From: Muscardinus avellanarius
Lineage: Eukaryota > Chordata > Mammalia > Rodentia > Gliridae
Assembly: GCA_963383645.1 (NCBI GenBank)
Contig: OY726560.1
Coordinates: forward strand, 89,601,093-89,665,092
Length of the DNA: 64,000 bases
Reading direction: 5' to 3'
Within the stretch, counting starts at the first letter, position 1; every line of letters starts with the position of its first letter. This document shows positions 4,921 to 61,838 of this stretch, piece after piece. Under the pieces are notes generated by a model, which searched no databases, had not been told where the DNA came from, and saw only the letters and a list, made by a program, of their open reading frames with translations. A program made the translations under genes and the position numbers.

Positions 4921-5825
4921 AGAAAGGACTGATGGCCAGTGATGAAGAACATCTTTTCATGTATCTATTGGCCCTTTGTATCTGGGAGATGCAAATCAAA
5001 ACTACACTGAGATTCTATCTAACCCCAGTCAGAGTGGCAAGCATAAAGAAATCAAATAACAACAAATGCTGGCGAGCATGTGGGGAAAGAGGAACTCTTT
5101 TACACTGTTGGTGGGAATGCAAACTAGTTCAGCCACTATGGAGATCTGTGTGGAGATTCCTAAGAAAGGTGGGAATAGATCCACCATATGATCCAACTCT
5201 ACCACTCCTGGGTATCTTTCCAAAGGGGTGGAATTCAGAGAAATACAGCAACATATGCATACCTATGTTCATAGCAGCACAATTTGTAATAGCCAAAATA
5301 TGGAACCAACCCAGATCTCCATCAATAGATGAATGGATAGCAAAACTTTGGGAAATACACACAATGGAATTCTATTCAGCCATAAAGAAGAACAAAATTA
5401 TATCATTTGCAAGAAGATGGAAAGCCCTGGAGAACATTATGTTAAGTGAGATCAGCCAAGCACAGAAGGAGATGGTATACATGTTTCCTCTAATATGCCC
5501 AAACTAGGAAACACAGAGGATACCAGTGGGACTCCAGATAATGGAGGGGAAATATCAGCAAAGTTTGAATGGAAAGATAGAAGAGGAATGCTGATCTTGA
5601 TTAATGAGGGTCTACATCTGAACATGTGTAAAATTATGAATATGACATGGTTAACCTGGACAACCATTGGTGGGAGGGGGAAAGGGAAAACGGGGGCGGG
5701 GGGAGAGGGCACCAAATATAGTTTAAATGTATACCATTTACGTTCAATAAAAAAATCGTTAAAAGAAAAAAAATAAAATAAAATGACAATTAAACTAAAA
5801 AAAAAAAAAAAAAAGAAAGGACTGA
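4921..5825 (+). mobile_element. L1, 5'-truncated, 881 bp, with 12-bp TSD
   Basis: Target-site duplication AGAAAGGACTGA at 4921-4932 and 5814-5825. The insert 4933-5813 carries the ORF2 C-terminal end, a G-rich polypurine 3'UTR (GGGAGGGGGAAAGGG at about 5672), a polyadenylation signal in TTCAATAAAA, and a long A-rich tail. It is one of the better preserved L1 ends here. The same 3' end subfamily is seen at 39,954-40,102. Confidence 0.95.
4932..5507 (+). pseudogene. L1 ORF2 C-terminal fragment, frame still open (191 codons)
   Basis: Matches the C-terminal end of L1 ORF2p, the endonuclease/reverse transcriptase that performs target-primed reverse transcription. The cysteine motif of the family is visible as C46-x3-C50-x7-H58-x4-C63, followed by the conserved stretch containing PMFIAAQFVIAKIWNQP and HTMEFYSAIKKN. 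The endonuclease and RT domains are absent because of 5' truncation, so the product could not act. The apparent start ATG is partly made by the insertion junction and is not a native start. The lack of stops suggests a fairly recent insertion. Confidence 0.85.
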
Positions 5826-5865
5826 GAAGGAGGCCTGGCTACCCTGGATGAAAACTTCTTTCCAA

Positions 5866-6415
5866 ACTCTCAATTTTCCATAAGTAATCCAAGTCAACAT
5901 AGTGCTTGGCTATAAAATGCTAATCTTATATGAATTACACAATTAAAATGTCATTTTTAAATTTTCATACAAAATGAATAAAAAGTGTTATTTGTTCATC
6001 TGGTGATGTCCTGGTTGTGCTAAAGGTTTAAACTTCTGCTCTCTTTCTCTGCACAGTGCTTTCTGGCCCTTTTTCTATGGGCTCATTTTTCTGTTATATA
6101 GATTGGCACACGAGTACTCCCAAGAATATGATTCTGGATTCCCTGTTAATTTTAACCTCTTCTATGCTTCTAGAACACCAATCTAATTGAATTTGAGAAG
6201 TGAACAGTGTGATCTTTTTCACACCTGAACTGTGTGAATCAATTTGTATTTATTGTAGTTACAACATGAGTGGAAAAATTTCAAGAAGCATATGAGAGGA
6301 TTAAAGATTTTATTAAGAGAAATAGGGAAAATAGAGTTAATTATATTAGGAATCTGAAAGGATTTATGGACAGATATATAGATCTGCATTTGGGCTTAAA
6401 GGGTAATAGAAATGC
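5866..6415. other. single-copy AT-rich sequence
   Basis: Non-coding, with no repeat I can name. The plus-strand frame beginning at 6270 runs into the purine tract that follows and is not a gene. Confidence 0.5.
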
Positions 6416-11281: not shown

Positions 11282-12345
11282 GTAGCTTAAGGTTATGTTG
11301 TTTGTGTTTTGAATGATTGCCATGCTAATTGAAGTTAGGTGAAATCTCAGGGTAGTTTTTATTTGCATCTCTCTGTTAATGATGTTGAGCATTTTTCATG
11401 AATTTATTGGCCATTTGAGTTTCCTCTTTTGTGAAATGCCTGTTTAGTTCACTGCCCATTTTTTGAATATTTGTTTTCTTAGTGCTGAGTTTCTTGAGTT
11501 CTTTGCATGTTGTTGATATTAGTCCTCTATTGGAGGCATAGGTGGCAAAAATTTCTCCCTTTCTATTGGTTCTCTGTTGAGGTTCTTGATAGTTTTCTTT
11601 GCTGAACAGAAGCTCTTCAGTTTTATGAAACTCCACACATTGATCTGCCTTTTAGTTTCTTGTGCCTTTAAGGTCTTTTTGAGTTTTTACCTGTGCCTAT
11701 GTGTTGCAGTGTTGGACCTATGATCCAGTAATACTACTTCTGGGTATCTACCCAAAAGAATGGAAACCAAACTACAAAACTAATTCATGCATATCTATGT
11801 TCATAGCTGCACAATTCACCATTGCCAAACTATGGGACCAGCCAAGATGTCCATCAACAGATAAATGGATTACAAAATTATGGGATATGTACACAATGCA
11901 GGTTTACTCAGCCATAAAAAAGAACACAATTTAGTCATTTACAGGGAAATAGGTGGACCTGGAGAACATTATGTTAAATGATATTAGTCAGCCACAAAAA
12001 ATAAGAAATCAGATGCTTATACTGTCCCTAATATGTGGAAGCTAGAGAGAAAAAATGTGTCATAGGAGGGACTCTAGACAAAGAAGGAGATACTGTGGAT
12101 GAACAAGTAAGGCAACCTAACTGAGGGGATGGAGGGGAAGAGGAAAATTCTCTAATGCACAGGATAGTTATTCACAAACACATCAAAGTCAAACATGAGA
12201 AGGAGGGAGGGGGAGGAAATGAGGTGGAAGTGGGCAGGGACTAATTGGGTGATGGGTACATGTATGCCTCTTCCATTTTGTACCTTATTAAAATGTATGA
12301 CAACAATGTATCAATAAAAAATTAAAAAAATAATAATGAGAAAAA
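11282..12345 (+). mobile_element. L1 3' portion with large 5' inversion
   Basis: 11,282-11,712 reads as L1 ORF2 on the minus strand, comparable to the inverse of 17,430-17,880. At about 11,713 the strand switches and 11,713-12,345 reads as ORF2 C-terminus plus 3'UTR on the plus strand. It ends in ATCAATAAAAAATTAAAAAA. Comparison with the collinear L1 at 17,130-18,612 shows that roughly 120 bp is missing at the switch. Inverted 5' end, small deletion and intact A tail together fit twin priming. I did not find a convincing target-site duplication. Confidence 0.88.
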
Positions 12346-12915
12346 AAACTATATACATATAGGACATTTATAAAGTGCTGGATTTAAAACTGAAGGTATC
12401 TATAATTATGTTATACAACTCATCAGATCAGGTGGTTACATATAAATTATTGAACTATCTACAGGTTTTAGAGAGGAATGAATTAAAGTTATTGTTCTCA
12501 TGTTAGGTATGTAGCTATTTCATATACAAGCAACAACTTTAGTTACAATATGGCTGCTTGTGGTGTTACTATGACATACAGGTGCCATTTATGAAAATGT
12601 CAGGACCAGAGGAAGAGATCACTGTAGCTCTCCAGGAATTAACAACTTAGTAGGTACTAAATGACAAAACCCTGTTTATAAAGCACCATCCCAGAACTTT
12701 ATGGAAGCCACTATGTTAAGAATTACCATGGTTTAGATCAAATTTGAGCATATTATTCCATGCTATAGAGTATCATGTTTTCAGATTTTGATCAAAGTCT
12801 ATTAAGTGCAATAAAAAGTGAAACTTTTACTTCATTCATTCAATAATATTTATTATATACCTAATATACGAAAGAAACATACTAGCTGAGCATACTAATT
12901 AAAAAATTAGTCTCT
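12346..12915. other. single-copy sequence
   Basis: AT-rich with no gene. The word TTCATTCAATAATATTTATT near 12,835 hints at an ancient L2/MIR-class remnant only. Confidence 0.4.
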
Positions 12916-17124: not shown

Positions 17125-18615
17125 AAGGATTGCATGTTTGAGGATAGACACAGTAATATTAACAGCATAGTACACAAAAACAGACACATAGACCAGTGGA
17201 ATAGAACAGAAAACTCAGAAACAAATCCACACACTTACAGCCAATTGATTTTTGACAAAGGAGCCAGAAAACATACACTGGAAGAAAAAAAGCCTATCCA
17301 ACAAATGGTATTGGCAAAACTAGTTAACCATATGCAGAAAAATGAAAATAAACTCCACTTTTTCACCCTGCACAAAATTCAAGATAGATCAAAGACTTGG
17401 AAATTAGACCAGAAACCTTGAGGTTCCTTGAAGAGGGCATAGATCCAACACTGCAACACATAGGCACAGGTAAACCCTTTCTTATCAAGACCCCAAAGGC
17501 ACAAGAAACTAAAAGTCAGATCAATAAATACATGGGATTGCATTAAACTGAAGAGTGTCTGTACTGCAAAGAAAACTATCAAGAACCTCAACTGAGAGCC
17601 AACAGAATGGGAGAAGATTTTTGCCATCCAGTCCTCTAATAGAGGACTAATATCTAGACTATACAGACAACTCAAGAAACTCAGAACTTAAGAAAATGAA
17701 TAACTGAATAAAAAATGGGCAAGTGAATTAAATAGACACTTCATGAAGGAAGAAATTCAAATAGCCAATAAATGCATGAAAAATACTCAACATCCTTAGT
17801 AATCAGAGAGATGCAAATCAAAACTGCCCTGAGATTTCACCTATTCCAACTAGAATGGCAATTACTCAAAACACAAACAACAACAAATGCTAGCAAGGAT
17901 GTGGAGAAGTGGGAACTCTACTACATTGTTGGTGGTACTGTAAATTAATACAACTACTTTGGAAAACTGTATGGAGACTCCTCAGAAGAATAGGAACAAA
18001 CTTACTATATGATCAAGCAACACCACATCTGGGTATCTATCCAAAAGAATAGAAACCAAGCTACCAAACTAATGCATGCCCGTCTATGTTCATAGCTGCA
18101 CAATTCACCATTGACAAACTATGGAATCAGCCAAAATGTCCATCAACAGATGAATGGATTACAAGACTATGGGATATGTACACAATGGAATTTTACTCAA
18201 CCATAAAAAACCACAATTATATCATTTACAGGGAAATGGGTGAAACTGGAGAACATTATGCTAAGTGAGATTAGTCAGTCCCCAAAATAATAAATTGGAT
18301 ATTCTCCCTAATATGCAAAAGCTAGGTAGAAAATGGGTCATAGGAGGAACTCTAGATGAAGGAGATAGTATAGATGAGCAAATAAGGTGACCTAACTGAT
18401 AGGATGGGAGGAAGAAGCAGGGCAATTCTCTAATGTCCATGATGTACGTTAAGAAACATCAAAGTCAATCACTAAGCCAAACATGAGAAGAAGGGAGAGA
18501 GAATGGGGTGGGAATTAGGTAGGGGCTAATTGTGTGCATGTATGGATCCATCATCCTGTACTCCATTAAGATGTATGACTACAATGCACCAATAAAAAAT
18601 AAAAACTACAAAAGA
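17125..18615 (+). mobile_element. L1, 5'-truncated, about 1.5 kb
   Basis: Collinear ORF2 C-terminal third plus 3'UTR and A-rich tail (GCACCAATAAAAAATAAAAA). Frames are broken: open pieces at 17,134-17,421 and 18,086-18,268 carry ORF2 words such as CPSTDEWITRLWDMYTMEF, separated by stops and shifts. It is useful here as the reference copy for the inverted L1 at 11,282. A short TACAAAAG match on both sides is a candidate but weak target-site duplication. Confidence 0.92.
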
Positions 18616-19737
18616 AACAAAAATAATTGTGCATCATGTCAGTATAAAAATTTTACCAATCAGGCATAAAACACAAGTTGTAATGCAGATTATACACTAT
18701 CCTATGTTTCCCAGAAAGCCCAATTTCTTTCCAAGTTTCCAGAGCATCTTTCAGTACTTGGTAAACAAAAATGCAAACCAGGAGTTATGTAACCTACTTA
18801 GCAACTTCTTTAGCTAAGTTTGTAAATTTTGTTAACCTCTAATTTGCATTGGGTGTTTTGGATTTTTAAAAGTCTGTCCAATTCTGTCTGGCTTTGAACA
18901 TTGTCTTTGGAGGTCAATAATTCTTTTGAAATTTTGACAAGTTCCTCCAATCCACTTAATTTTTTGAACAAAATGTCCTGACGAAAACTAAAGATTTATG
19001 ATGAGTAATTTAAAGATCTTCTTTCTCCATTTTATTTGATCTAAGATTTGAAAATACCAGGTCATATGGTCCAGTCTGAGAATGAAGTGGCATCTCTAAG
19101 ACCATTTTACACCGCAAAACAGAAAAATTCATAATGGTTTAGAATGTATATTTTGATTAAGATGTATGTAATATATATGTATCTACATATATATGTCTTT
19201 GTCTTATGTCCTACAATGACTCAAATAAACATATATAATTTAATTTACTTGAGATTCCCATGATTTGTGCATTAATACATTTTCTCTTACCTCACCAACA
19301 AAGCTTAAAATTGATACAGTCCTTTTGTGTATTCTCTGCCTGAAAAGTTGATCAATATAAGACATAATTTTCCTCTGCATATAACATAAACCTACATTTA
19401 TTTTGGTTTAAATATACACAAAAAACTGGTTATTTTATGTTTATATATATGTGTGTGTGTATATATATATATATATATAATTTCCCTTTCTATGGTGCTT
19501 CTAAATGTATAAAAAATTAAATGTATTGATAAAGGCACCAAATCTAAACCACTCTTATTTCTTTGTACTATCAGTTTTATTTTGAACAATTAATTATATA
19601 GAGAAGTAAGGGGAATCTATACTTTATTAATCAATTAGGCCTATAAAGTTATAATACTTTCTATAGAGTGTAGTAACCTCAATCATATTAGCTTACTCAA
19701 TTGAACATATATTTGTTTTTATATTTAAAAGTTTTCC
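18616..19737. other. single-copy sequence with AT-dinucleotide tract
   Basis: Contains a TATATG/GT/TA microsatellite at 19,441-19,480. Nothing else is recognised. Confidence 0.5.
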
Positions 19738-23025: not shown

Positions 23026-23173
23026 TCCTCATATGGATATGTTTGAAAAAAATATACATAGTTTTGTGCAGGAAGACAAGTTATATTTTGTTACTTTTGG
23101 AAGATGTAAAATATGATTGTGCATCTAATATCTTTGAGGTTTTTCTCCACTTAAAATCATAACATGGTTCCGG

Positions 23174-23185
23174 GAAGATGGCGAC
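23174..23185 (+). promoter_or_regulatory. YY1-like site at L1 5' end
   Basis: GAAGATGGCGAC lies within 10 bp of the element start, the position and sequence at which YY1 sets the start site of mammalian L1 transcripts. Its retention suggests this copy began with a full 5' end. Confidence 0.7.
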
Positions 23186-24132
23186 AGAGAAAAGCGGGGC
23201 TTACAAGCCCCGCTAACAACCAATCTCTATTACCACAAAATCAGTGACTTTCATAGCCAGAAAACACCATCAGCAGAGAAAAAAAAAAAAAAGTAAATAC
23301 AAGGGACAGAGAAAAAGAGGGCTGGAAAAACAAGACACCAGAAAGAAACCAGACTGCAGTGCTGCGGCCGGAGCCGCAGCTCAGAGCAGCGTGGGCGCCA
23401 TCTTCCCTTGCAGCACTAGGCTCCAGAGAGGAGGGGGACTCAGAACGGAGCTCAGAGCCACAGAGGAGATACACCAGCCTCACGCCTGAGGACGCAGCAG
23501 CAGCGCCTTACTGCCAGTGGCAGCAGCGAGTTCATCACTCAACAGCCCACCAGGCTCCAGAGAGGAGCAGCAGACAGCGAGCCAAGGTGAGCAGCTGCGG
23601 ATCAGCCAGGAGGAATTCGGCAGATTTTTCAGCGCAGGGAGCATCTAAAGCTCCCAGGGGTTGGGCTCAGCACACCCTGCAGGGACTCAGAGTGGGGCTC
23701 AAACCAGAGAAGAAATATGCCAGCCTCATGGCCGAGGGCATGGCAGTGGTGCCATATTGCCACCGGCGGCAGCAGCAGCGAATTCACTGAGTTCACTACA
23801 GCTCCATCAGCGCACTCAAACACTGTGAGTCAAATTGCGGCCCCTAGAGGAGAAATCCCAGTACTGTACTCCCAGGGACTTGACCCAGTGGGGGAGTGGC
23901 GGTGGCAGAGATATCACACCATAGTCACAACTCCCCACAGGAGAATGCCCAACCTGGCACCACCAATGTTCTAAAGCAGCCTCGATTGACTCCCTGGGTC
24001 TGAGACTTTGTGATACAACCGAGTAAAGGAGTAGTGGTGACTGAGATACCACAGACTCGAGATCCAGAGCACCTTAAGTGAACTTGTAGTGACCCAGAGA
24101 AGAACCCAGAGAAGGAACAAACTTCCAAAATC

Positions 24133-25058
24133 ATGGGAAAGAGGAATAACAATGGAGCAATAAATGCCCACAACCCCACAACTTCAGAACCTGATAAAAC
24201 AGAAAATCAGAGATTTCTAGAAGATCAGATCAGGAAAATAACTGTAGAAATAATAGAGGTGTTTCAAAAAGAATTCAGAGAGAGAGCCAAAAAGAGATAA
24301 AGGATGCAATTAATGAAGTAAAGGCCTCAATTCAAAGTACAAACAACCAACTAGACCACATGGAGAATAGAATCTCACTCCTAGAAGATGATCACTCCAA
24401 AAATGAACGCATAGTTTCTAATTTAGAAAAAAAAAATCCGACAGCAGGAATCTGACATTGAAGAAATATGGGCCCATTTTAAGAGAGCTAACCTAAGAAA
24501 AATTGGAATAGAGGAGGAAAAAGAAGGTGAAACCAAAGGGATCAACAATATCTTCAAGGAAGTAATAGCAGAAAATTGCCAAAACATAGAGCAAGAGGTC
24601 GATACACAGGTCCAGGAAACTTATAGAACTCCCTTTGGACAGGATCAGAGAAGAGGATCCCCATGCCACACAATTGTCAAAATGACCAATGTGGAAGCCA
24701 AGCAGAGAATCTTAAAGGCAACAAAAGCAAAGGGCCAAGTGACATTCAGATCAGAGGCAAACCAATTAGAATCACTCCAGACTTCCCAAACCAAGTCATG
24801 AGACCCAGAAGGGCTTGGAGTAACATATTCCAAACTCTGAAAGAAAACAACTTCCAGCCAAAAATTTCCTACCCAGCAAAACTTTCTATCAAATTAGATG
24901 GAGAAATAAGAAGCTTCCATGACAAACAGAAACTGAAGGAATTTATGTCTTCAAAACCAGCGCTCGAGAAAATACTTAAAGAGATCAACTACAAAGAAGA
25001 AATAGGTAACACACACCAGAACCAGAGAAACAAGATTTTCCATCCAACAGACAACTAA
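24133..25058 (+). pseudogene. L1 ORF1 (RNA-binding chaperone), broken, copy 1
   Basis: Encodes the remains of ORF1p, the trimeric coiled-coil RNA-binding protein of the L1 particle. Visible in order are an N-terminal start (MGKRNN), a coiled-coil region (NRISLLEDDHSKNERIVSN), an RRM-like segment and the C-terminal domain (FQPKISYPAKLSI). The frame ends at TAA 25,056-25,058. Lesions: a 2-bp insertion near 24,280 with a stop at 24,298-24,300, a 1-bp insertion in the A run at 24,427-24,436, and a shift near 24,743-24,757. The last is shared with copy 2. Confidence 0.88.
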
Positions 25059-25099
25059 GATTGGTTATCTGTGGAGATTCATTATTTATGTTAGTCTTT

Positions 25100-25745
25100 T
25101 ACCTATCTCTAAATTGTATTGTTTGCTTTTATTGTTGCTAATTTTTAGGATTTCTAGTTGGAATATTAATATACCTTTAGATATAGCATTTAGAAATATT
25201 TTATCCCATTCTATCAGTAACTTTTAACTCTGTTTACATTGTCTTTGGATATACAATATTTTTTTATTTTTTTATTTTTTAGGGAGTTTATTTACCATTT
25301 TGTTGCCTGTGCCACTGAAATCATATCCAAGAAATCACTGCCAATTTCAATGTTGTGAGGGTTTATGACCCAGATTTTCTTCTAAAAATAAAAATCTTAA
25401 GATTTATATTTAGGTCTTTTATCTATTTTGAGTTAATATTTGTATATGGTGTTAGGTAAGGGTCCAATTTTATTCTTTTTCATGTAATTATTATTTCTCA
25501 ACAATATTTAGTTAAAAGATTATTATTTCCTCCACCAAATGTTTTTGAAAACCTTGTCAAAAATAACTTTACAATATATGGACGAATTTATCTCTAGGCT
25601 TTTATTTAACTCCAATGGTTTATATATCTGCCTTTATAACAGTACTATACTGTTTCAATTATTGTAGCTTTATAAGGTTTGAAATCAGAAAATATATATC
25701 TTCTAGCTTTGTTTTTTTTCAAGATCGTTTTGGATATCTAGAGTC
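25100..25745 (-). pseudogene. antisense block of L1 ORF2
   Basis: Read on the minus strand this matches the ORF2 region just upstream of the cysteine motif (sense words GAAATCAGAAAATATATATC..., ACTCAAAATAGATAAAAGAC, AATCTGGGTCATAAACCCTC). It lies opposite to ORF1 and to the 3'UTR of the same element. The same inverted block sits at the same place in copy 2. Confidence 0.85.
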
Positions 25746-26234
25746 CATATTCCATATTAGGATAGATTTTTTTCTGAAAAATAAATAAATAAATGTATGA
25801 TAGTTTCACCTAAAAAAAAAATTTAAAAAATATTCTCTGGTAAGAAAGAAAGCAAAAAGAAATATTGAAATGTTATCTTTAAGTCATCAAAAGCTTGGTA
25901 TCAGACAAATGAAACTGCTATGTGAGATTATCATTGTTAATTTTGGATAAATTGCTATAATACTAGATGTCAACCACTAAGCCAAGCATGGGAAGGAGGG
26001 ATGGGGAGGGAATGTGGTGGGGATCAGGAAGGGGCTAACTGGGTGATGTTTGCATGTATACAAAAGCTTTTTTTTTTATCCCATTATGATATATGAATAC
26101 AGTGCACCAATAAAAAATAAAAAAAAATAAAATCATAACATGGAAGCAATTTTAAAGGAAAGTAATTTATTGAAGGAATAAATAAAAATAATTAAGATTT
26201 TAAAATAGCATTTCTTATAGGCAATTGAAAATAC

Positions 26235-51824: not shown

Positions 51825-52107
51825 TTGCTCTTTCTTCTTTCTTTTCTTTTTCCTTCCTTCCTTCCTTCCTTTTCTTTCTTTTTTCTTTTTTATTTCTTTT
51901 TCAGTTCTGAAGCTTGAACCCAAAAGAATTCTACCTCCAAGCCCCATTTTGTATGTTTGTTCATTTTGTAGGGTCTTTCTAAGTTATCGAGGGACCTCAC
52001 TAAGTTACTGAGGCACTTTGCTACGTTTGAGGCTGGTCTCAAACCTATTATCCTCCTGTCTCAGTTTTCCAGGTACTGGGATTGCAGGTGTGCCACAATG
52101 CCCAGCT
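51825..52107 (-). mobile_element. SINE with pyrimidine-rich tail
   Basis: A CTTT/CCTT repeat tract (51,825-51,903; inverse of an AAAG/AAGG tail) leads into AGTTCTGAAGCTTGAACCCA and a diverged minus-strand dimer to GCCACAATGCCCAGC. An extra CTGAGGCACTTTGCTACGTT interrupts the middle. Confidence 0.87.
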
Positions 52108-52455
52108 TATTTCTTGTTTCTTAGACTTCCTCATAAGGAAACATTAATAGAATCTATAATTTCCAACAATGTCACCTCTCATTTATCTGATGGTAGAAAT
52201 TCTAACCATGCTGAGAAGATGCTCTATTCGTCTGTTTAACTTTAAAAGAATGTCCCCTGCCCCTACACACACATGCTTCCCCTCACAAAGTAGATTTTTT
52301 TTTTCTGGTCTTCAGGGAAATAAGAAAGAAAGATAATTGAGAAATGTAGGACATTTTTCACAAAGCTAACTATTTGCAATGTAAAAGATAATTAACTCTG
52401 AATTTTTTATTGTTAAAATCTCATCTTTTTAATTAATGGTGATAAAGAATACAGA

Positions 52456-52662
52456 AGCTCGGTGTGGTGGCACACACTTTTAATAGCAGTATTTGGGAGG
52501 CTGAGACAGGAGGATCACAGGTTGGAGGCCAGCCTCAGCTACTCAGTGAGACACTCTGCAACTTAGGCTCTGTTTCAAAAATTAAGAATAAAGGACAGAG
52601 CTGGGGGTGTGCCTGGGAGGTAGAATGCCTCTGGGTTCAATCCCTAGTACTACACACACAAA
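52456..52662 (+). mobile_element. SINE, dimeric B1-ID
   Basis: GCTCGGTGTGGTGGCACACA through CAATCCCTAGTACTACACAC. CA-rich tail start; short ACAGAA flanks. Confidence 0.9.
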
Positions 52663-53362
52663 ACAAAAAACAGAAATAAAAATGTCTCCAAATAAGACTC
52701 CCATACCCTTTTGACAATCTCTGCTCTTAAAAATTTACTATTTGGTAAATTCCAAAAGTATGAAAACTTATGTATTAGAAAATAACAAACTATTCCTGTA
52801 CTTTTTATGAGGTTTTTTGGAGGAAGGCTTAATATAGGAACTAAAGTAAGCTACTGAAATTCTTTTCATACATCCTTGCTTCTAGATGAGCCTAAGTAAA
52901 CCAATTAATCAGGAATAACACTTTTAGAATTCACTCTACATACCCCAATACACAAAAGTGATATCTTTTTTCTTTTAAAATGATTTATATATCCCTAATT
53001 TACGTCTTTGCTTCAAATATCCATTACATTAGAAACATCATCCTCCATTTTGCCTGCCGAATCCCACATGTGCTATAACACCTAACTTAAATGATTCATT
53101 TTCATAAAAGTCATGAATTTTTTATCTTTCTTCCAGAATCTGAAAATCTTTAATCTATTATGTTTAGTACTTTTTGAAGCTCTGAGGACAAGCATGACAC
53201 TCTTAAGAAAAAGTTGGTGGTTAGCCTTGTTTTCTAGCACTACCACTCTAAAGTATTAAAATCCAGGTGGATCAAGACAGCAGAAATTATTTACTACATG
53301 TGGAATTAATTTCAGAAGTCTGAAGTTAATGTATCTGCAAGGCCACATTCACCCCAAAGATA
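52663..53362. other. single-copy sequence
   Basis: Nothing recognised. Confidence 0.45.
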
Positions 53363-53545
53363 CTAGAAAGAAGCTATTCTGTTTTCCTCCTCCATTCGAG
53401 GAGCTTCAAGCATTACTTGCTTTACAAATGTACCATAATGTTCATGTTCCAAGATGATACCTTCACCAGATCTTCTATTCATATTTCTCTGTCCAAATTT
53501 CTTCTTTGTGTGATAATAACCAGCCATACTGGATTGGGGGTACAT
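53363..53545 (-). other. open frame of 60 codons, unrecognised, possible gene fragment
   Basis: A minus-strand frame with a charged, non-repetitive composition (FGQRNMNRRSGEGIILEHEH, then a Met/Glu-rich end). It is unlike the Leu/Phe-rich chance frames elsewhere. I do not recognise the family. It stops at 53,363, and the other end lies 26 bp from the target-site duplication of the large composite element. It may be a decayed exon or retrocopy of a cellular gene, or chance. Confidence 0.2.
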
Positions 53546-53586
53546 CCATCCTCCCTCGTGACTTCATTTTAAATTTGATTAACTCG

Positions 53587-53746
53587 GTAGCACGCCAGAC
53601 CCCTGGAGAAACCAGGCCCAGTAAGACGCTGGGTTCTGGGCAGGGGTCGCGGGCTGGGCACGCCAGATGGGGCCCGGGTCGCGGGACTCTGGGCCCCAGG
53701 CCGAACTGCGAGTAGCACGCCAGACCCCTGGAGAAACCGGGCCCAG
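53587..53746 (+). repeat. 125-bp-spaced direct repeat in GC-rich 5' region
   Basis: TAGCACGCCAGACCCCTGGA begins at 53,588 and again at 53,713. Each match continues with GAAACC(A/G)GGCCCAG, giving about 35 bp repeated 125 bp apart. The intervening sequence has GGGTCGCGGG twice. The arrangement is like 1.3 copies of a promoter monomer, as in some rodent L1 5'UTRs. CpG content is high. Confidence 0.88.
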
Positions 53747-54235
53747 AACAGAAAAAGATAAAGAAAAATATCGGAGAGGAGGTAAGAAAGCCGTTATGGA
53801 TGCCAGGACACTGGAGATGCAGACAAAACTTATCTAAATGCACTGGAACTTATGGAAAAATTCGCCGTGAAAGAGGACTGCTATTTCTCTATATTGTTAA
53901 AAATCTCAGACATCACATATAAGGAGAGAGTTTAGTGGAGACCAAGGAGAAATGCAGTGTTGAAAGAGTTCTCCGCGATGGTGGTGGAGGCTTGTATTCA
54001 GGAGAAGCAGAAACCGGATCTTACCAACTTTATTTTTTTGGAGAAATTACACCAAATGTCGAATGTTACCATCACGCATGCTTAGGAACACTGGACAACA
54101 TTCAGAGTGGAAAAAGAGCCTGGGAAGGATTTGAAATGGTGGAGGCAGTGGCAATGCCAGTGGCCAATATTCGGGGGAGGCAGAGATCTGATACATTACA
54201 ACTGGAACCTTTGAAATAATAACCACAGAGACAGT
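53747..54235 (+). other. unique 5' body of the composite element
   Basis: Non-repeated sequence between the GC-rich start and the VNTR. It holds a good splice-donor-like word GAGGAGGTAAGAA (near 53,775-53,790) and an acceptor-like TTGTTAAAAATCTCAG (53,895-53,910). I recognise no L1, SINE or LTR sequence in it. Its origin is unknown. Confidence 0.6.
53935..54219 (+). CDS. 94-codon open frame inside the composite element, unknown
   Basis: The frame starts METKEKCSVERVLRDGGGG and ends with a Leu-rich LQLEPLK, terminating at TAA 54,217-54,219. No signal peptide, membrane segment or known motif is seen. It covers most of the unique 5' body and stops about 20 bp before the VNTR. It may be part of an ancestral coding exon captured by the element, or a chance frame. 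Confidence 0.2.
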   Translation: METKEKCSVERVLRDGGGGLYSGEAETGSYQLYFFGEITPNVECYHHACLGTLDNIQSGKRAWEGFEMVEAVAMPVANIRGRQRSDTLQLEPLK

Positions 54236-57200
54236 GATCGGAACCTGCTGAGGGGTTAGGCGGGCGCCGGGGCCAGTGGCCGACATTGGAGCTTGCTGTG
54301 AGGCAAGGCCACTACTGAGGCCTCCGTGGCTGGGATTGGAACCTGCAGAGGGGTTAGACCGATGCTGGGGCCAGCGAGGCCAGCATTGGAGCCTGCCATG
54401 ATGCAAGGCTTGTGCTAGGGCCTCCGAGGTCGGGTCCGGAACTTGCTGAGGGGTTAGGCCGGTGCTGGAGTCAGCGAGGCCGGCATTGGAGCCTGCCGTG
54501 AGGCAAGGCCAGTGTTGGGGCCCCCGAGGACGAGACTGGAGCCTGCTGAGGGGTTAGGCCGGTGCTGGGGCCAGCGAGGCTGGCATCAGAGCCTGCCATG
54601 AGGCAAGGCCGGTACTTGGGCCTCGGAGGCCAGGATAAGAGCCTGCCGAGGGGTTAGGCCGGTGCTGGGGCCAGCGAGGCATCAGAGCCTGCCGTGAGGC
54701 AGGGCCAATACTGGGGCCTCCGAGGTCAGGATAAGAGCCTGCCGAGGGGTTAGGCCGGTGCTGGGGCCAGTGAGGCTGGGATCGGAGCCTGCCATGAGGC
54801 ATGGCCGGTGCTGGGGCCTCCGAGGCCAGGATAAGAGCCTGCCAAGGGGTTAGGCCGGGTCTGGGGCCAGCGAGGCCGGCATCAGAGCCTGCCGTGAGGC
54901 AAGGCTGGTACTGGGGCCTCCGAGGTCAGGATAAGAGCCTGCCGAGGGGTTAGGCCGGTGCTGGGGCCAGTGAGGCCGGCATCGGAGCCTGCCTTGAGGC
55001 ATGACCAGTGCTGGGGCCTCCGAGGCCGGGATCGGAGCCTGCCGAGGGGTTAGGCCAGTGCTGGGGCCAGTGAGGCCGGCATCGGAGCCTGCCTTGAGGC
55101 AAGGCTGGTACTGGGGCCTCCGAGGCCAGGATAAGAGCCTGCCGAGGGGTTAGGCCGGTGCTGGGTCCAGTGAGGCCGGCATCGGAGCCTGCCTTGAGGC
55201 AAGGCCAGTACTGGGGCCTCGAGGCCAGGATAAGAGCCTGCCGAGGGGTTAGGCCGGTGCTGGGGCCAGCGAGGCCTGCATCGGAGCCTGCCTTGAGGCA
55301 AGGCCGGTACTGGGGCCTTCCGAGGCCAGGATAAGAGCCTGCCGAGGGGTTAGGCTGGTGCTGGGGCCAGCAAGGCCGGCATCGGAGCCTGCCGTGAGGC
55401 AAGGCTGGTACTGGGGCCTCCGAGGTCAGGATAAGAGCCTGCCGAGGGCTTAGGCTGGTGCTGGGGCCAGCGAGGCCGGCATCGGAGCCTGCCTTGAGGC
55501 ATGACCAGTGCTGGGGCCTCCGAGGCCGGGATCTGAGCCTGCCGAGGGCTTAGGCCGGTGCTGGGGCCAGTGAGGCCGGCATCGGAGCCTGCCGTGAGGC
55601 AAGGCCGGTACTGGGGCCTCCGAGGCCAGGATAAGAGCCTGCTGAGGGGTTAGGCCAGTGCTGGGGCCAGCGAGGCTGGCATCGGAGCCTGCCTTGATGC
55701 ATGACCAGTGCTGGGGCCTCCAAATCCGGGATCGGAGCCTGCCAAGGGGTTAGGCCGGTGCTGGGGCCAGCGAGACCGGCATCGGAGCCTGCCTTGAGGC
55801 AAGGCTGGTACTGGGGCCTCTGAGGCCAGGATAAGAGCCTGCCGAGGGGTTAGGCCGGTGCTGGGGCCAGCGAGGCCGGCATTGGAGCCTGCCGTGAGGC
55901 ATGACCAGTGCTGCGGCCTCCGAGGCCGGGATCGGAGCCTGCCGAGGGGTTAGGCCGGTGCTGGGGCCAGCAAGGCCGGCATCAGAGCCTGCCATGAGGC
56001 AAGGCCGGTACTGGGGCCTCCGAGGCCAGGATAAGAGCCTGTAGAGGGGTTAGGCCGGTGCTGGGGCCAGTGAGGCCGGCATCGGAGCCTGCCTTGAGGC
56101 AAGGCCAGTACTGGGGCCTCGAGGCCAGGATAAGAGCCTGCTGAGGGGTTAGGCCGGTGCTGGGGCCAGCAAGGCCGGCATCGGAGCCTGCCATGAGGCA
56201 AGGCCTGTACTGGGGCCTCCAAGGCCAGGACAAGAGCCTGCCGAGGGGTTAGGCCGGTGCTGGGGCCAGCGAGGCCGGCATCGGAGCCTGCCGTGAGGCA
56301 AGGCTGGTACTGGGGCCTCCGAGGCCAGGATAAGAGCCTGCTGAGGGGTTAGGCCGGTGCTGAGGCCAGCGAGGCCGGCATCGGAGCCTGCCTTGATGCA
56401 TGACCAGTGCTGGGGCCTCCAAATCCGGGATCGTAGCCTGCCAAGGGGTTAGGCCGGTGCTGGGGCCAGCAAGGCCGGCATCGGAGCCTGCCTTGAGGCA
56501 AGGCCGGTACTGGGGCCTCTGAGGCCAGGATAAGAGCCTGTAGAGGGGTTAGGCCGGTGCTGGGGCCAGTGAGGCCGGCATCGGAGCCTGCCGTGAGGCA
56601 AGGCCGGTACTGGGGCCTCCGAGGCCAGGATAAGAGCCTGTAGAGGGGTTAGGCCGGTGCTGGGGCCAGTGAGGCCGGCATCGGAGCCTGCCGTGAGGCA
56701 TTACCAGTGTTGGGGCCTCCGAGGCCGGGAGCCTGCCGAGGGGTTAGGCTGGTGCTGGGGCCAGTGAGCCCGGCATCGGAGCCTGCCTTGAGGCAAGGCC
56801 GGTACTGGGGCCTCCAAATCCGTGATCGGAGCCTGCCAAGGGGTTAGGCCCGTGCTGGGGCCAGCGAGGCCGGCATCGGAGCCTGCCTTGAGGCAAGGCC
56901 GGTACTGGGGCCTCTGAGGCCTGGATAAGAGCCTGCCGAGGGGTTAGGCCGGTGCTGGGGCCAGCGAGGCTGGCATCGGAGCCTGCCTTGAAGCATGACC
57001 AGTGCTGGGGCCTCCGAGGCCAGGATCGGAGCCTGCCGAGGGGTTAGGCTGGTGCTGGGGCCAATGAGGCCGGCATTGGAGCCTGCCATGAGGCTAGGCC
57101 GGTTTCTGGCCTCTGAGGCTGGGATTGGAATCCTGCCAAGGGGTTAGACCGGTGCAGGGGCCAATGGCCAGCATCGGAGCCTGGCATGAGGCAAGTTCAC

Positions 57201-57365
57201 TTCTGCGGCCTCCAAGGCAGGGACCAAAGCCAGCTTAGGGGTTAGACCGGTTCAGGGGCCAGCGAGACCAGAACTGGGGCCTCCCATGAGGCAAGGCCGC
57301 TGCTTCAGCCAGCGAGGTCTGGATCAGTCCACTGAGTAGCCAGGCCACTACTGGGACCATCAAGA
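54236..57365 (+). repeat. VNTR: about 31 copies of a ~100-bp CpG-rich unit
   Basis: The word GCCGAGGGGTTAGGCCGGTG recurs with a spacing of 99-101 bp. Each unit is a dimer of related half-units of about 49 and 51 bp. Both halves contain AGCCTGCC, GGCCGGT, CTGGGGCC and CGAGGCC, and they differ at linked sites (GGGGTTA against GAGGCAA). There are about seven CpGs per unit in fresh units. The first and last few units (54,236-54,560 and 57,080-57,365) are the most degenerate, as usual for array edges. Long minus-strand frames arise because the unit lacks stops in those frames. Confidence 0.97.
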
Positions 57366-57567
57366 GTGGGATTGGTACTTGCAACGCAGCATGCACATAG
57401 AAATATCGCAGAAAATATAAATCAGACGCTTCTCTTAATCAGCAATTACTAGGAGGAAAAGGGCAACAGGAAGAGGTTGAGCTATAGAAAGGGCCCTATA
57501 GTGAAGCAACTAATGTGACCAATCAGAGGGTATGTAATACTGGAGGACAGAGCCTCTTTAAAATGCA
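57366..57567 (+). other. unique link between VNTR and L1 tail
   Basis: Contains a CCAAT-box-like GACCAATCAGAG (57,518-57,529) and, about 30 bp on, a TATA-like CTTTAAAATG. Such spacing is seen in promoters and LTR U3 regions. Nothing else identifies the source. Confidence 0.45.
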
Positions 57568-57783
57568 GGAGGTACATAAACAAATGTATCAAAGTAAATC
57601 ACCAAAGAAGTGTGGGATGGAGGGAGGGGGAGGGAATGGGATGGGGGATGGAGGAGGGCTAATTGGATGATGTGTGCTTGTATATCGTCTCAAGTCTTGT
57701 ACTCCAATGTGATTGATATATGACTACAATGCACCAATTTAAAAAATAAATTAATTAAAAAAATGTTGAGAATGCAAGAAAAA
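57568..57783 (+). mobile_element. L1 3'UTR-type tail of the composite element
   Basis: TATCAAAGTAAATCACCAAA, a polypurine tract (GGGATGGAGGGAGGGGGAGG), TAATTGGATGATGTGTGCTT, and ACAATGCACCAATTT followed by AAAAAATAAATTAATTAAA. This aligns in order with L1 3' ends at 18,440-18,600 and 25,970-26,128. Confidence 0.9.
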
Positions 57784-57978
57784 AAATTTGATTAACTCTG
57801 TAAAGAATTTCCAAATGAGGACATATTCCGAGGCAGTAGGGGTGAGGACTGCACCATGTTTTTCAGGTTGCAACTCAACTCAGAGAAGTGGTCCAGAATA
57901 GTTAGTTCCTGAGGATTCTTGGAGATTCTGAAATATGAGATAGAAGTAATAAACTAGGCACACACCATGACATTTTTT

Positions 57979-58182
57979 GCATGTGTGTATGATACTGTGG
58001 ATTAAATACAGGGGCATTCTACATCTGAACTACAACTCCAGCTCTTTTTATGTTTTATTTTGAAACAGGGTCTCACTAAGTTGCAGACGGCCTCACTATG
58101 TTTGATGCTGACTGCGATCCTGTGATACTCCTGTCTCAGCCTCCCAAGTACTGGGATTACAAATGTTTGCCACCATGCCTGG
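57979..58182 (-). mobile_element. SINE, dimeric B1-ID
   Basis: TGTATGATACTGTGGATTAA through TTTGCCACCATGCCTGGCTC, moderately diverged. Confidence 0.9.
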
Positions 58183-58189
58183 CTCATAC

Positions 58190-58370
58190 AATTTTTTTTT
58201 TTTTTTTTTTTGTGGTACCTGGGATGGAACTCCAGGGCATTGTACCTCCTAGCTACACCCCCAGCCCTATATTTATTTATTTATTTATTCATTTATTTAT
58301 TTATTTATTTATTTTGCGGTACTGGGGATGAAACCCAGGGAAATTCTACCTCTGAGATACCCCCAGCCCT

Positions 58371-58410
<40 letters not shown>

Positions 58411-58634
58411 CTTATTTATTTATTTTTTATTTTTGCAGTACTGGGGATGGAACCCCAGGGCATTCTACCTCCGAGCTACACCCCCACCTTATTTTTAATT
58501 CTTTATTTTTGAATCAGGGTCTCACTGAGTTGCAGAGGGCCTCATTAAGTAGCTGAGGCTGTCCACGAACTGTGATCCTCCTGTCTCAGCCTTCCGAATG
58601 CTGGGATTACAAGTGTATGCCACAACGCCCAGCC
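58190..58634 (-). mobile_element. three stacked SINE ends with (TTTA)n linkers
   Basis: ID-type halves on the minus strand occur three times in succession: 58,210-58,270, 58,313-58,374 and 58,430-58,495. The first two are each followed by a (TTTA)n tract and no B1 head. Only the third continues into a full head (to 58,634). The pattern fits repeated insertion into, or tandem amplification across, the A-rich linker. Confidence 0.9.
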
Positions 58635-59085
58635 CAGAAATCTTTTTTTTTTTTTGTGTGTGTGTGGGTATGGGGGTGAAACCCAGGGACACTCGACCTC
58701 CGAGCTACACCCCCTGCCCTATTTTTTATTCTTTATTTTGAAACCGGGTCTCACTGAGTTGCAGAGGGCCTAAGTAGCTGACGCTGTTCGCAAACCACCA
58801 TCCTCCAGTCTCAGCCTCCCGAATGCTAGGATTACAAGCGTGCGCCACCACACCCGGCTTTAGCCAAGAAAAAAATTTTTTTTTTTTTGGTGGTATTGGG
58901 GTTCCTGGAAGCCCTTCTAACTCCAGGCTACACTCCCAGACCTATTTTTACATTTTTATTTGGAAACAGGGTCTCCTAAACCAGCGTATGCAGCTGGCTT
59001 CGAACCTACGCGGTCCTCCTGTCTCTGCCTCCTAAGCGTGGGGATTACAAGCGTGCGCCGCCACGCCCGGCTCAGCCCAGAAATT
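58631..59085 (-). mobile_element. two adjacent SINEs between a shared AGCCCAGAAAT repeat
   Basis: 58,643-58,859 is an older-type dimer (CGACCTCCGAGCTACACCCC). 58,876-59,072 is a young-subfamily copy (GGTATTGGGGTTCCTGGAAG, GCCGCCACGCCCGGCT). AGCCCAGAAAT at 58,631 and 59,074 brackets both, so one inserted at the edge of the other after the first target-site duplication formed. Confidence 0.85.
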
Positions 59086-59126
59086 TTTAAATAAATAAAT
59101 AAATAAAATTCAAAAAGAATCCGGAA

Positions 59127-59305
59127 GGCCGGGCGTGGCGGCACACGCTTGTAATCCCCACACTTGGGAGGCGGCGCTAGCTTAAGGACCCTGCTTCCAA
59201 ATAAAAAGTATAAAATAGGTCTGGGAGTGTAGCCCGGAGGTAGAAAGGCTTCCAGGAACCCCAGTACCACCACCACAAATAAAAAATAAAAATAAAAAAA
59301 TAAAA
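59127..59305 (+). mobile_element. SINE, young subfamily, internally deleted
   Basis: GGCCGGGCGTGGCGGCACAC with many CpGs retained, an internal deletion after GGGAGGCGG, and ID half GTAGCCCGGAGGTAGAAAGG to CAGTACCACCACC. The tail is AAATAAAAATAAA. It faces the copy at 58,876-59,072 in inverted orientation. Confidence 0.92.
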
Positions 59306-61838
59306 GATTCCTAAAGAAAGTTATATGGCTTGTTATCTTTTTTAGTTATCCCAGCATTTACCATTCTAATGGTTGAGCACCTTCCTAAGGCTGGACATAG
59401 ACAGGAGGGGAGAGAAATAATTTTCTAACGTTTGAGAAGAAATTTGGCAAAGAATCTGTAGTTATCTTTAATTTACCATAGCATGGAAGTTAACTCTTAG
59501 GATAACTAAGTCAACTCTTAGTGAAATTCATGCAGGTATTTTTGGAAGTTGTTGTAAAGTTTCTAACTTTATTTACCATATACCCAGGCAGGTAAACATA
59601 CAAGTCCAGTTACATTAGTCAAGCTAAATCTGTATTCTGGGTACTATTACTCACAGTTTAAGACTGACAATTTTGAATTTATAATACTGATAAAGCTAAG
59701 CTGCCTACTGTCTCTTAAACATTTTACATTGCTGCAATATCACAATGTAGCATAAACTAATATAATATGAGAAACACCAAAAATACTATCCATCTACACA
59801 GGGTATTAAATGTGAAATATTCACAGTCAGATTTTGGTCAATTTTTCAATATATTTTTGTTTGAAAATATATGTATTTTTAAAACATTCTTTGGTGGTAT
59901 TGCCATAATGAGTTGGGAACAAATATTGAGGCCATTTGATAATATTTAAAAAACTCAACTCCTGGATACTCTGTTCTTTTCTTGGTTTTACACAGTTCAA
60001 TAAAACACAAACAGCAGTTTTATTGTTGAACTTCTGTTGTTTTATGGACTTACCATTGGGAGCATGCTTCTGATGCAGTCAGCATTTTAGACAGGCAGAG
60101 GGCCCAGAAGCCAGGCACAGCCTCACTGAGGTCCTGCAGTGCTTTGTTTTGGAAAATGTCATGCTGGTGATTATAAAGGATCAAGTCATATATATCTACC
60201 AACCACATCCTGTCATTATGGTAATTCTAATTGTAATGAACTTTGGAATCGATGGAAAGAGAAAAATATCACTTTCAATCAAATAAGAAATGAACAAAAT
60301 AAAGCTATCAATGTTTGGCAACCTTTCATTTGTTTGTGTAGCATTGCCAAAAAAATAACATTGTAATTCTAGAAGAACAAAAGAATGTTATAAATATATG
60401 TTTCATTGAATATTTACAAAACTATTATTATTAGTATCATTATTATCAACACCATTGTATTATATAAAGTTATTGTCCTAAGTGATTTATTGGACTCACT
60501 GATTGAAGTTCAGCAAAACAATTAGTCTGACACATCTCATGCTGTGTTTCATAAACTATGAACTAATTCTCTACCAACCTACACTCTTTGGTCCATTACT
60601 TTCTACTTTTTTCTTATCACTAAAAGCACAAAATTAGAACAGAAAGGTAAAGTTGGGACCTCTTGGGAATTCATTCTATCAGAAGAATCAATATTTGCTA
60701 AATGCAGGGTTCAGCAAGACCATAATTGCTAGCTTTATGATGATATGATGTTACACATAAGTCCACTTCATGATACTAAATCCATTAACAAAAGAAAGAT
60801 ATATTTTTCTACTTTCATCTTCAGGCCCATTAAGGAAAAACAATTAGATAAGTTCATTCATGTATCATTTTGTTACTGGTCACTCAGTATTGTACCAGTA
60901 TGAGATGTTCAAAAGATGAATGAGAAATGTCTGTAACACAAGGGATTACAATAAGGAAAAAGAAATATATGCACATACAAATATTTAAGTGATGATTTTA
61001 GTGTTTGAGCTTGTTTAAGTGAGACATTAAAAGATTGTTCATAAGATTTAAGAATAATTATTAGGCCTGTTATTTCAAAGGTTTACCATCTTGTGGAATG
61101 AACTTGGACTTTTTTTCATCATTTTAGCCATAGATTCTAATAAAGTAGAATTTAGGCCTTTGTTTTCACCACAATTCAAATACTATTACTATTTTTAATT
61201 TAAAATTTGTATTTAATTTCCTCCATCAATGATAAAGCCAGTTGCAATGCAGGTTATACATTTTATTCAGGTTGTCTTTTAGGCCTTATATGGAGATGTA
61301 TTTAATGTATAAACTATTATAAATTTGGGGAACCTACATGCTCAGAGGCTTGATGTGGTTAGTCATCTGAATATATACTAGACAGAAATGTTTAACGGTA
61401 TAGTAAGCAGATTTAATAAAGTCACAATGGAATGAGTCTATTCTCAACTCTGACCTTTGCTTTCAGTAGAGAATAAATGTAACCATCTCCTTTGATACAG
61501 TTGTGAGATTCTAGATTATTTAAGAGATCATAGTCACAAAATAGAAATAGGAATTGAAAAAGAATTACAGCATTCTTTCTCATTGTAGTAATTAAAATAG
61601 CTGCCAGCATTTTGTTCGACATATTGAAAAAAATCAAAACTTCTTGCAATCATTTGCTAAAAAGTAGTACATGCAATAGAATTTGAGAAATGTTATTTAC
61701 AGAAAACGAACAATCTATAAATGGTAATGAAGTCCTTCATACAAGAATGTTACAAGTTAACCCCAGACTCCCCCAGGGTAGAAAGCATAGGATACAGAAG
61801 TTTGGAAGACATTCAATAAAAAGAAATTAGAAAAAAAA
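59306..61838. other. single-copy AT-rich sequence, 2.5 kb
   Basis: No recognised repeat except a possible ancient remnant near 60,850-60,950. No gene is supported. The frame 60,139-60,366 has no recognisable domain. Confidence 0.4.

Follow-up and report, generated by a model that had tools for sequence, protein, structure and literature searches.

A 64,000-nucleotide stretch of contig OY726560.1 from Muscardinus avellanarius, referred to as the window, contains at positions 53571–57802 an element of ~4.2 kb that is composed of a 5′ part, a variable number tandem repeat (VNTR) array, and the 3′ end of an L1, without the L1 open reading frames (ORFs). The element, all of whose parts are described on the + strand, is very probably a non-autonomous retroposon that was inserted in one event by the L1 machinery. 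Its boundaries are marked by a target-site duplication, with a 5′ copy, AAATTTGATTAACTCGGTA (53571–53589), and a 3′ copy, AAATTTGATTAACTCTGTA (57784–57802), that are identical at 18 of 19 positions. Among 400 random pairs of 60-bp stretches, drawn within the window at a distance of 4.2 kb from one another, none contained a match of at least 18 of 19, and the best 19-mer match did not exceed 16. The 5′ copy directly follows CATTTT, which places the nick site at TTTT/AAA (top strand), a sequence that we take to be an L1-endonuclease type of site. With the A-rich tail that precedes the 3′ copy, the target-site duplication and the L1-type nick site make up the features of an L1-mobilised retroposon.

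The 5′ part begins with a GC-rich 5′ end (53590–53746; 71% GC), in which the ratio of observed to expected CpG is 0.60. Self-BLAST shows that 53587–53621 recurs at 53712–53746 (35 bp, 97% identity, E value of 7e-11), and the start of the element is therefore read as a 125-bp unit begun twice, a partial tandem. The 5′ middle part that follows (53747–54225; ~480 bp, 42% GC) contains a donor-like AG/GTAAG site at 53782. The longest stop-free run in this segment is 98 codons, a length reached in 13 of 1000 shuffles; given this rarity, the segment may be a former coding piece. Pfam searches in six frames of 53590–54240 gave no match, and frames of the 5′ part had no homologues in protein collections whose libraries included no rodent proteome. 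A PDB search with these frames returned four sequences only, with E values of 0.4–0.55 that were taken as chance. No further copy of the 5′ part or of the VNTR was found within the window.

The VNTR (54226–57383) has a GC content of 68% and is built of 100-bp units, each comprising two halves of ~50 bp that align as related. Tandem Repeats Finder (TRF) called the array at 54244–57299 with a period of 100 (30.7 copies, 86% matches, score 4197) and, in a second call, at 54237–57192 with a period of 50 (59.4 copies, 70% matches). In an alignment of 30 units, cut at a recurring anchor, the edge units 1–3 and 29–30 depart from the consensus at 15–24 columns and units 4–28 at 2–14. As the core units are more alike than the edge units, the array did expand; doubling of a ~50-bp unit to 100 bp, followed by multiplication from inside, would produce this pattern. 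For alignment scores, controls were shuffled by dealing out non-overlapping dinucleotides. By this measure, similarity to the VNTR consensus extends in the 3′ direction to ~57383: the score for 57300–57400 is 42 (shuffles 17.3 ± 3.5; reached by 0 of 200), and that for 57330–57400 is 26 (15.6 ± 3.1; 2 of 200). Derivation of the unit from the 5′ part was rejected, as the scores of the consensus against four pieces of that part were reached by 99, 74, 45, and 47 of 200 shuffles. A regular higher-order repeat was likewise rejected: among 25 core units, the mean difference at lags 1–12 is 9.17–11.75 compared with 10.75 for all pairs, and lags 7, 5, and 9 are slightly lowest. The array does not read as coding sequence, with a TAG inside the unit and a unit length of 100 that is no multiple of three. 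Nor is it a G3-type quadruplex array, there being no such motif on the + strand against a shuffle mean of 9.3; looser G2-type motifs number 222 versus 170. The inverted repeats inside the element (17 pairs of 18–26 nt, 75–82% complementary) fall within the array and at its 3′ margin.

The L1 3′ end (57412–57760) comprises the end of ORF2 and the 3′ untranslated region (UTR), including a G-rich stretch at 57613–57658, and is homologous to the sequences that begin at 18284 and at 11995. The ORF2 ends located in the window by tblastn, with a human ORF2p C-terminus as the query, include 11719–12042 and 17713–18287, and both are followed by tails resembling that of the VNTR element. Three further such L1 tails are found at 25989, 43481, and 51637. 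Homology starts at 57412, opposite 18284, within the last ORF2 codons, of which about a dozen are presumably kept, judging by the end of human ORF2. The L1 3′ end is 64.7% identical to the 18-kb copy over 357 columns. Against the two window L1s, 57412–57567 scores 60 (shuffles 23.5 ± 3.9) and 46 (24.1 ± 4.3), values reached by 0 of 200 shuffles each, and 57384–57480 scores 40 (0 of 200) and 29 (22 of 200). Between the VNTR and the L1 lies a short joint of ~28 bp (57384–57411) that is unassigned; the scores of 57330–57411 against the window L1s are reached by 27 and 183 of 200 shuffles. The A-rich tail (57761–57783) is interrupted by 15 bp, TGTTGAGAATGCAAG, ahead of the final A-run. These 15 bp have no counterpart at the ends of the other L1 tails aligned and are possibly a short 3′ transduction, which would imply a source copy elsewhere.

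An earlier note on this DNA, made from the sequence alone, had described the flanking duplication, the GC-rich 5′ segment, ~3.1 kb of tandem repeats, and an L1 3′UTR-type end with an A-rich tail, and had reported that L1 ORF1 and ORF2 are absent. All of these descriptions hold, the L1-type end by virtue of its alignment with the tails behind ORF2 C-termini. The note's “unique link” at 57366–57567 mostly does not, because the VNTR runs to ~57383 and the L1 begins at ~57412.

The case for a single insertion rests on the location of all three components (5′ part, VNTR, and L1 end) within one and the same duplication. It is strengthened by the TTTT/AAA site, by the position of the VNTR inside the duplication, and by the homology to both window L1s, and also by the two other sites at which ORF2 C-termini precede the same kind of tail. 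The element contains no long ORF: the longest ATG-started frames in 53590–57783 are 56 codons (+) and 82 codons (−), and the 5′ part has no Pfam match. The two flanks have CpG ratios of 0.12 and 0.34, compared with 0.60 in the 5′ end, 0.51 in the middle part, and 0.47 in the VNTR. In two further elements of the window that carry L1 tails, described below, no ORF2 C-terminus was detected either. Rfam gave no matches in 52000–60000, and a tRNA scan of the whole window found none. We infer the following course of events. Transcription by polymerase II would begin within or close to the GC-rich tandem repeat of the 5′ end, cross the middle part and then the VNTR, and continue into the L1 3′UTR, and the transcript would be polyadenylated. 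L1 ORF2p would then take this transcript in trans, gaining hold of it by the L1 3′ end and the poly(A), and reverse transcription at the TTTT/AAA nick would give rise to the 19-bp duplication. Other copies of the element would be expected to exist. Four observations weigh against this account. A single copy of the element is seen within the window; its L1 tail is only ~65–75% identical to the other tails there, such that no close driver L1 is seen in the window; the CpG ratio of the L1 end, 0.29, lies inside the range of the flanks; and the Pfam, PDB, and protein-collection searches did not identify a source for the 5′ part.

The two other L1-tailed elements, at 23168–26131 (+; copy A) and 46120–43341 (−; copy B), are copies of one element, with 89.6% identity over 2728 columns and a further common piece of 122 bp at 91.8% identity. 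Copy A is flanked by a 15-bp duplication, AAAATCATAACATGG, and copy B by an imperfect duplication, AAAGTATCTAGG and AAAGTAAATCTAGG. Both copies begin with TTCCGGGAAGATGGCGAC, which we take to resemble an L1 5′ end, and their L1 tails are of the kind found in the VNTR element. A scan of copy A only revealed a decayed L1 ORF1 in two frames (PF02994, E value of 9.9e-17; PF17490, E value of 8.8e-22). The query for the ORF2 C-terminus, the one part of ORF2 covered by the search, gave no hit inside either copy. Copies A and B are accordingly called HAL1-like, and they point to past mobility in the lineage of L1 derivatives from which the ORF2 C-terminus, at least, is missing. The stretch ahead of the tail in both copies appears by eye to be antisense L1 ORF2, and if so, these elements would also be composite. 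In an excerpt of PMC5753468, half-L1 (HAL1) elements are described as non-autonomous L1 derivatives that had several separate origins in mammals. HAL1 encodes ORF1p, whereas in the VNTR element no ORF1 is detected, the 5′ part being without a Pfam match and the + strand without an ATG frame of more than 56 codons.

Elsewhere in the window, an L1 ORF2 end at 4971–5900 is followed by a 3′UTR that is clearly unlike those of the other L1s read, and on this account there seem to be at least two L1 3′UTR lineages in the window. Downstream of the VNTR element, 58191–58884 contains a B1-like SINE cluster and TTTA-rich repeats, in which tandem periodicities of 103, 119, and 225 bp occur. A B1 consensus has 22 hits in the window at an E value of 1e-3, and an ID consensus has none. 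In two B1-like copies, an ID-like part is seen by eye behind the B1 part, a SINE type that we assume to mark squirrels and their relatives; a literature search for this type returned no paper that names it. The squirrel-type genome proposed in the earlier note is thus no more than plausible.

Two of the alternatives to be weighed are versions of the one-insertion reading and are not exclusive of it. The first, a real possibility though short of probable, is that the element is an internally deleted or spliced L1, in which the 5′ part and the VNTR represent the 5′UTR of an L1 subfamily from squirrels, with ORF1 and nearly all of ORF2 lost. Spliced or internally deleted L1 insertions, such as SpIREs, are known, and like them, the VNTR element keeps the L1 3′ end and is missing the interior. 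The L1 part begins inside the end of ORF2, as a deletion would give, and because the supposed link is mostly L1, this alternative is stronger than the earlier note had allowed. The donor-like site at 53782 and the HAL1-like L1 derivatives in the window point the same way, and the tandem 5′ start resembles the monomeric 5′UTRs of murine L1. Unlike in SpIREs-type insertions, however, the 5′ part and VNTR have been matched to no L1 5′UTR. The score of the 5′ part against the 5′ end and ORF1 of copy A, 33, is that expected of shuffles (32.5 ± 3.9; reached by 94 of 200, and by 128 of 200 on the other strand), and the match of the VNTR consensus to copy A is not clear (19 of 200). That neither the 5′ part nor the VNTR was found to recur in the window also argues against a subfamily 5′UTR. 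The 5′ part does align with the L1 at 11719–12347 (53756–53860 against 12076–12178) with a score of 44, which 0 of 200 shuffles reach (29.0 ± 3.5). This alignment is gapped and purine-rich, and it was judged to be chance or low complexity because it does not recur with the L1 at 17438–18640, where 90 of 200 shuffles reach the score, and is absent from the word-4 BLAST list at an E value of 10.

The second alternative, that a chimeric transcript of the cell, joining a host exon, a minisatellite, and an L1 3′ end, was retrocopied just once and founded no family, is unlikely. It accords with the single copy seen, with the 98-codon stop-free run in the middle part, and with the 15 bp ahead of the final A-run, which could be transduced flank; the frames tried are, however, without a protein match in the libraries searched. 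A locus-specific minisatellite grown beside an unrelated truncated L1, the outcome that the earlier note had named as one that would overturn its reading, is very improbable, as the expansion of the core units that it would explain is outweighed by a duplication that brackets the whole 4.2 kb and by the lack of any duplication around the tail alone (best 12-mer match 8, at chance, compared with 7–12 for the best matches of random 12-mers).

As a single insertion, the element is thus most likely either a composite with a VNTR core or an extensively deleted L1, with an SVA-like plan, and is not an SVA. Similar to hominoid SVA, it is VNTR-centred and L1-mobilised, with a central GC-rich VNTR (periods 50 and 100). 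The VNTR units of SVA are given as 35–50 bp in an excerpt of PMC5753468, compared with the ~50-bp halves paired into 100 bp observed here, a similarity in kind only. The element differs in that the 3′ end is L1, as assigned by homology in a comparison that included no SINE-R sequence, rather than HERV-K10/SINE-R, that it sits in a rodent-type genome, and that the SVA hexamer CCCTCT has no exact occurrence in 53571–57802, where AGAGGG occurs five times, scattered. No Alu-like part was found with the B1 consensus, which is 7SL-derived like Alu (Alu itself was not compared): none of its 22 window hits falls inside the element, and B1 was rejected as a source. The SVA-like logic proposed in the earlier note holds as to plan (a VNTR centre, no L1 ORFs, target-site duplications, TTTT/AAA, and an A-rich tail). 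The gibbon LAVA, PVA, and FVA elements are also VNTR composites, and they differ in that their hexamer is not found in the VNTR element. The 3′ part of LAVA includes an L1ME fragment (PMC4432496, in excerpt). That fragment is one of several in the 3′ part of LAVA, whereas the 3′ part of the VNTR element consists of an L1 end that extends from the last ORF2 codons to the tail.

Most of the interest of the element lies in the question of a family. We tentatively suggest, at somewhat less than an even chance, that a multi-copy family of L1-mobilised, VNTR-centred composite retroposons arose in squirrels separately from those of apes. Its members would consist of a GC-rich segment acting as promoter and a dimeric, self-expanding minisatellite, with an L1 3′ end attached after scarcely any intervening sequence. 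Exact patterns from the VNTR, the 5′ part, and the L1 tail had no hits in viral and GTDB collections, which, being viral and prokaryotic by description, carry no weight for or against such a family. The abstract of PMC4432496 restricts SVA, LAVA, PVA, and FVA to hominoid primates, and that of PMC7353768 does so for SVA and LAVA. Among the literature matches listed, mostly outside the subscription literature, no squirrel or rodent VNTR composite was apparent by title or start of abstract. Because VNTR composites are described as hominoid-specific, confirmation of a family in rodents would be noteworthy. If real, such a second, unrelated origin would show what these elements require, namely a VNTR rich in GC and a 3′ end that L1 can use, an Alu part perhaps being dispensable, and would allow the contribution of the VNTR to trans-mobilisation by L1 to be tested by comparison. 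It would also bear on the LINE and SINE quiescence that Platt and Ray (2012), cited in an excerpt of PMC5857283, reported for the ground squirrel.

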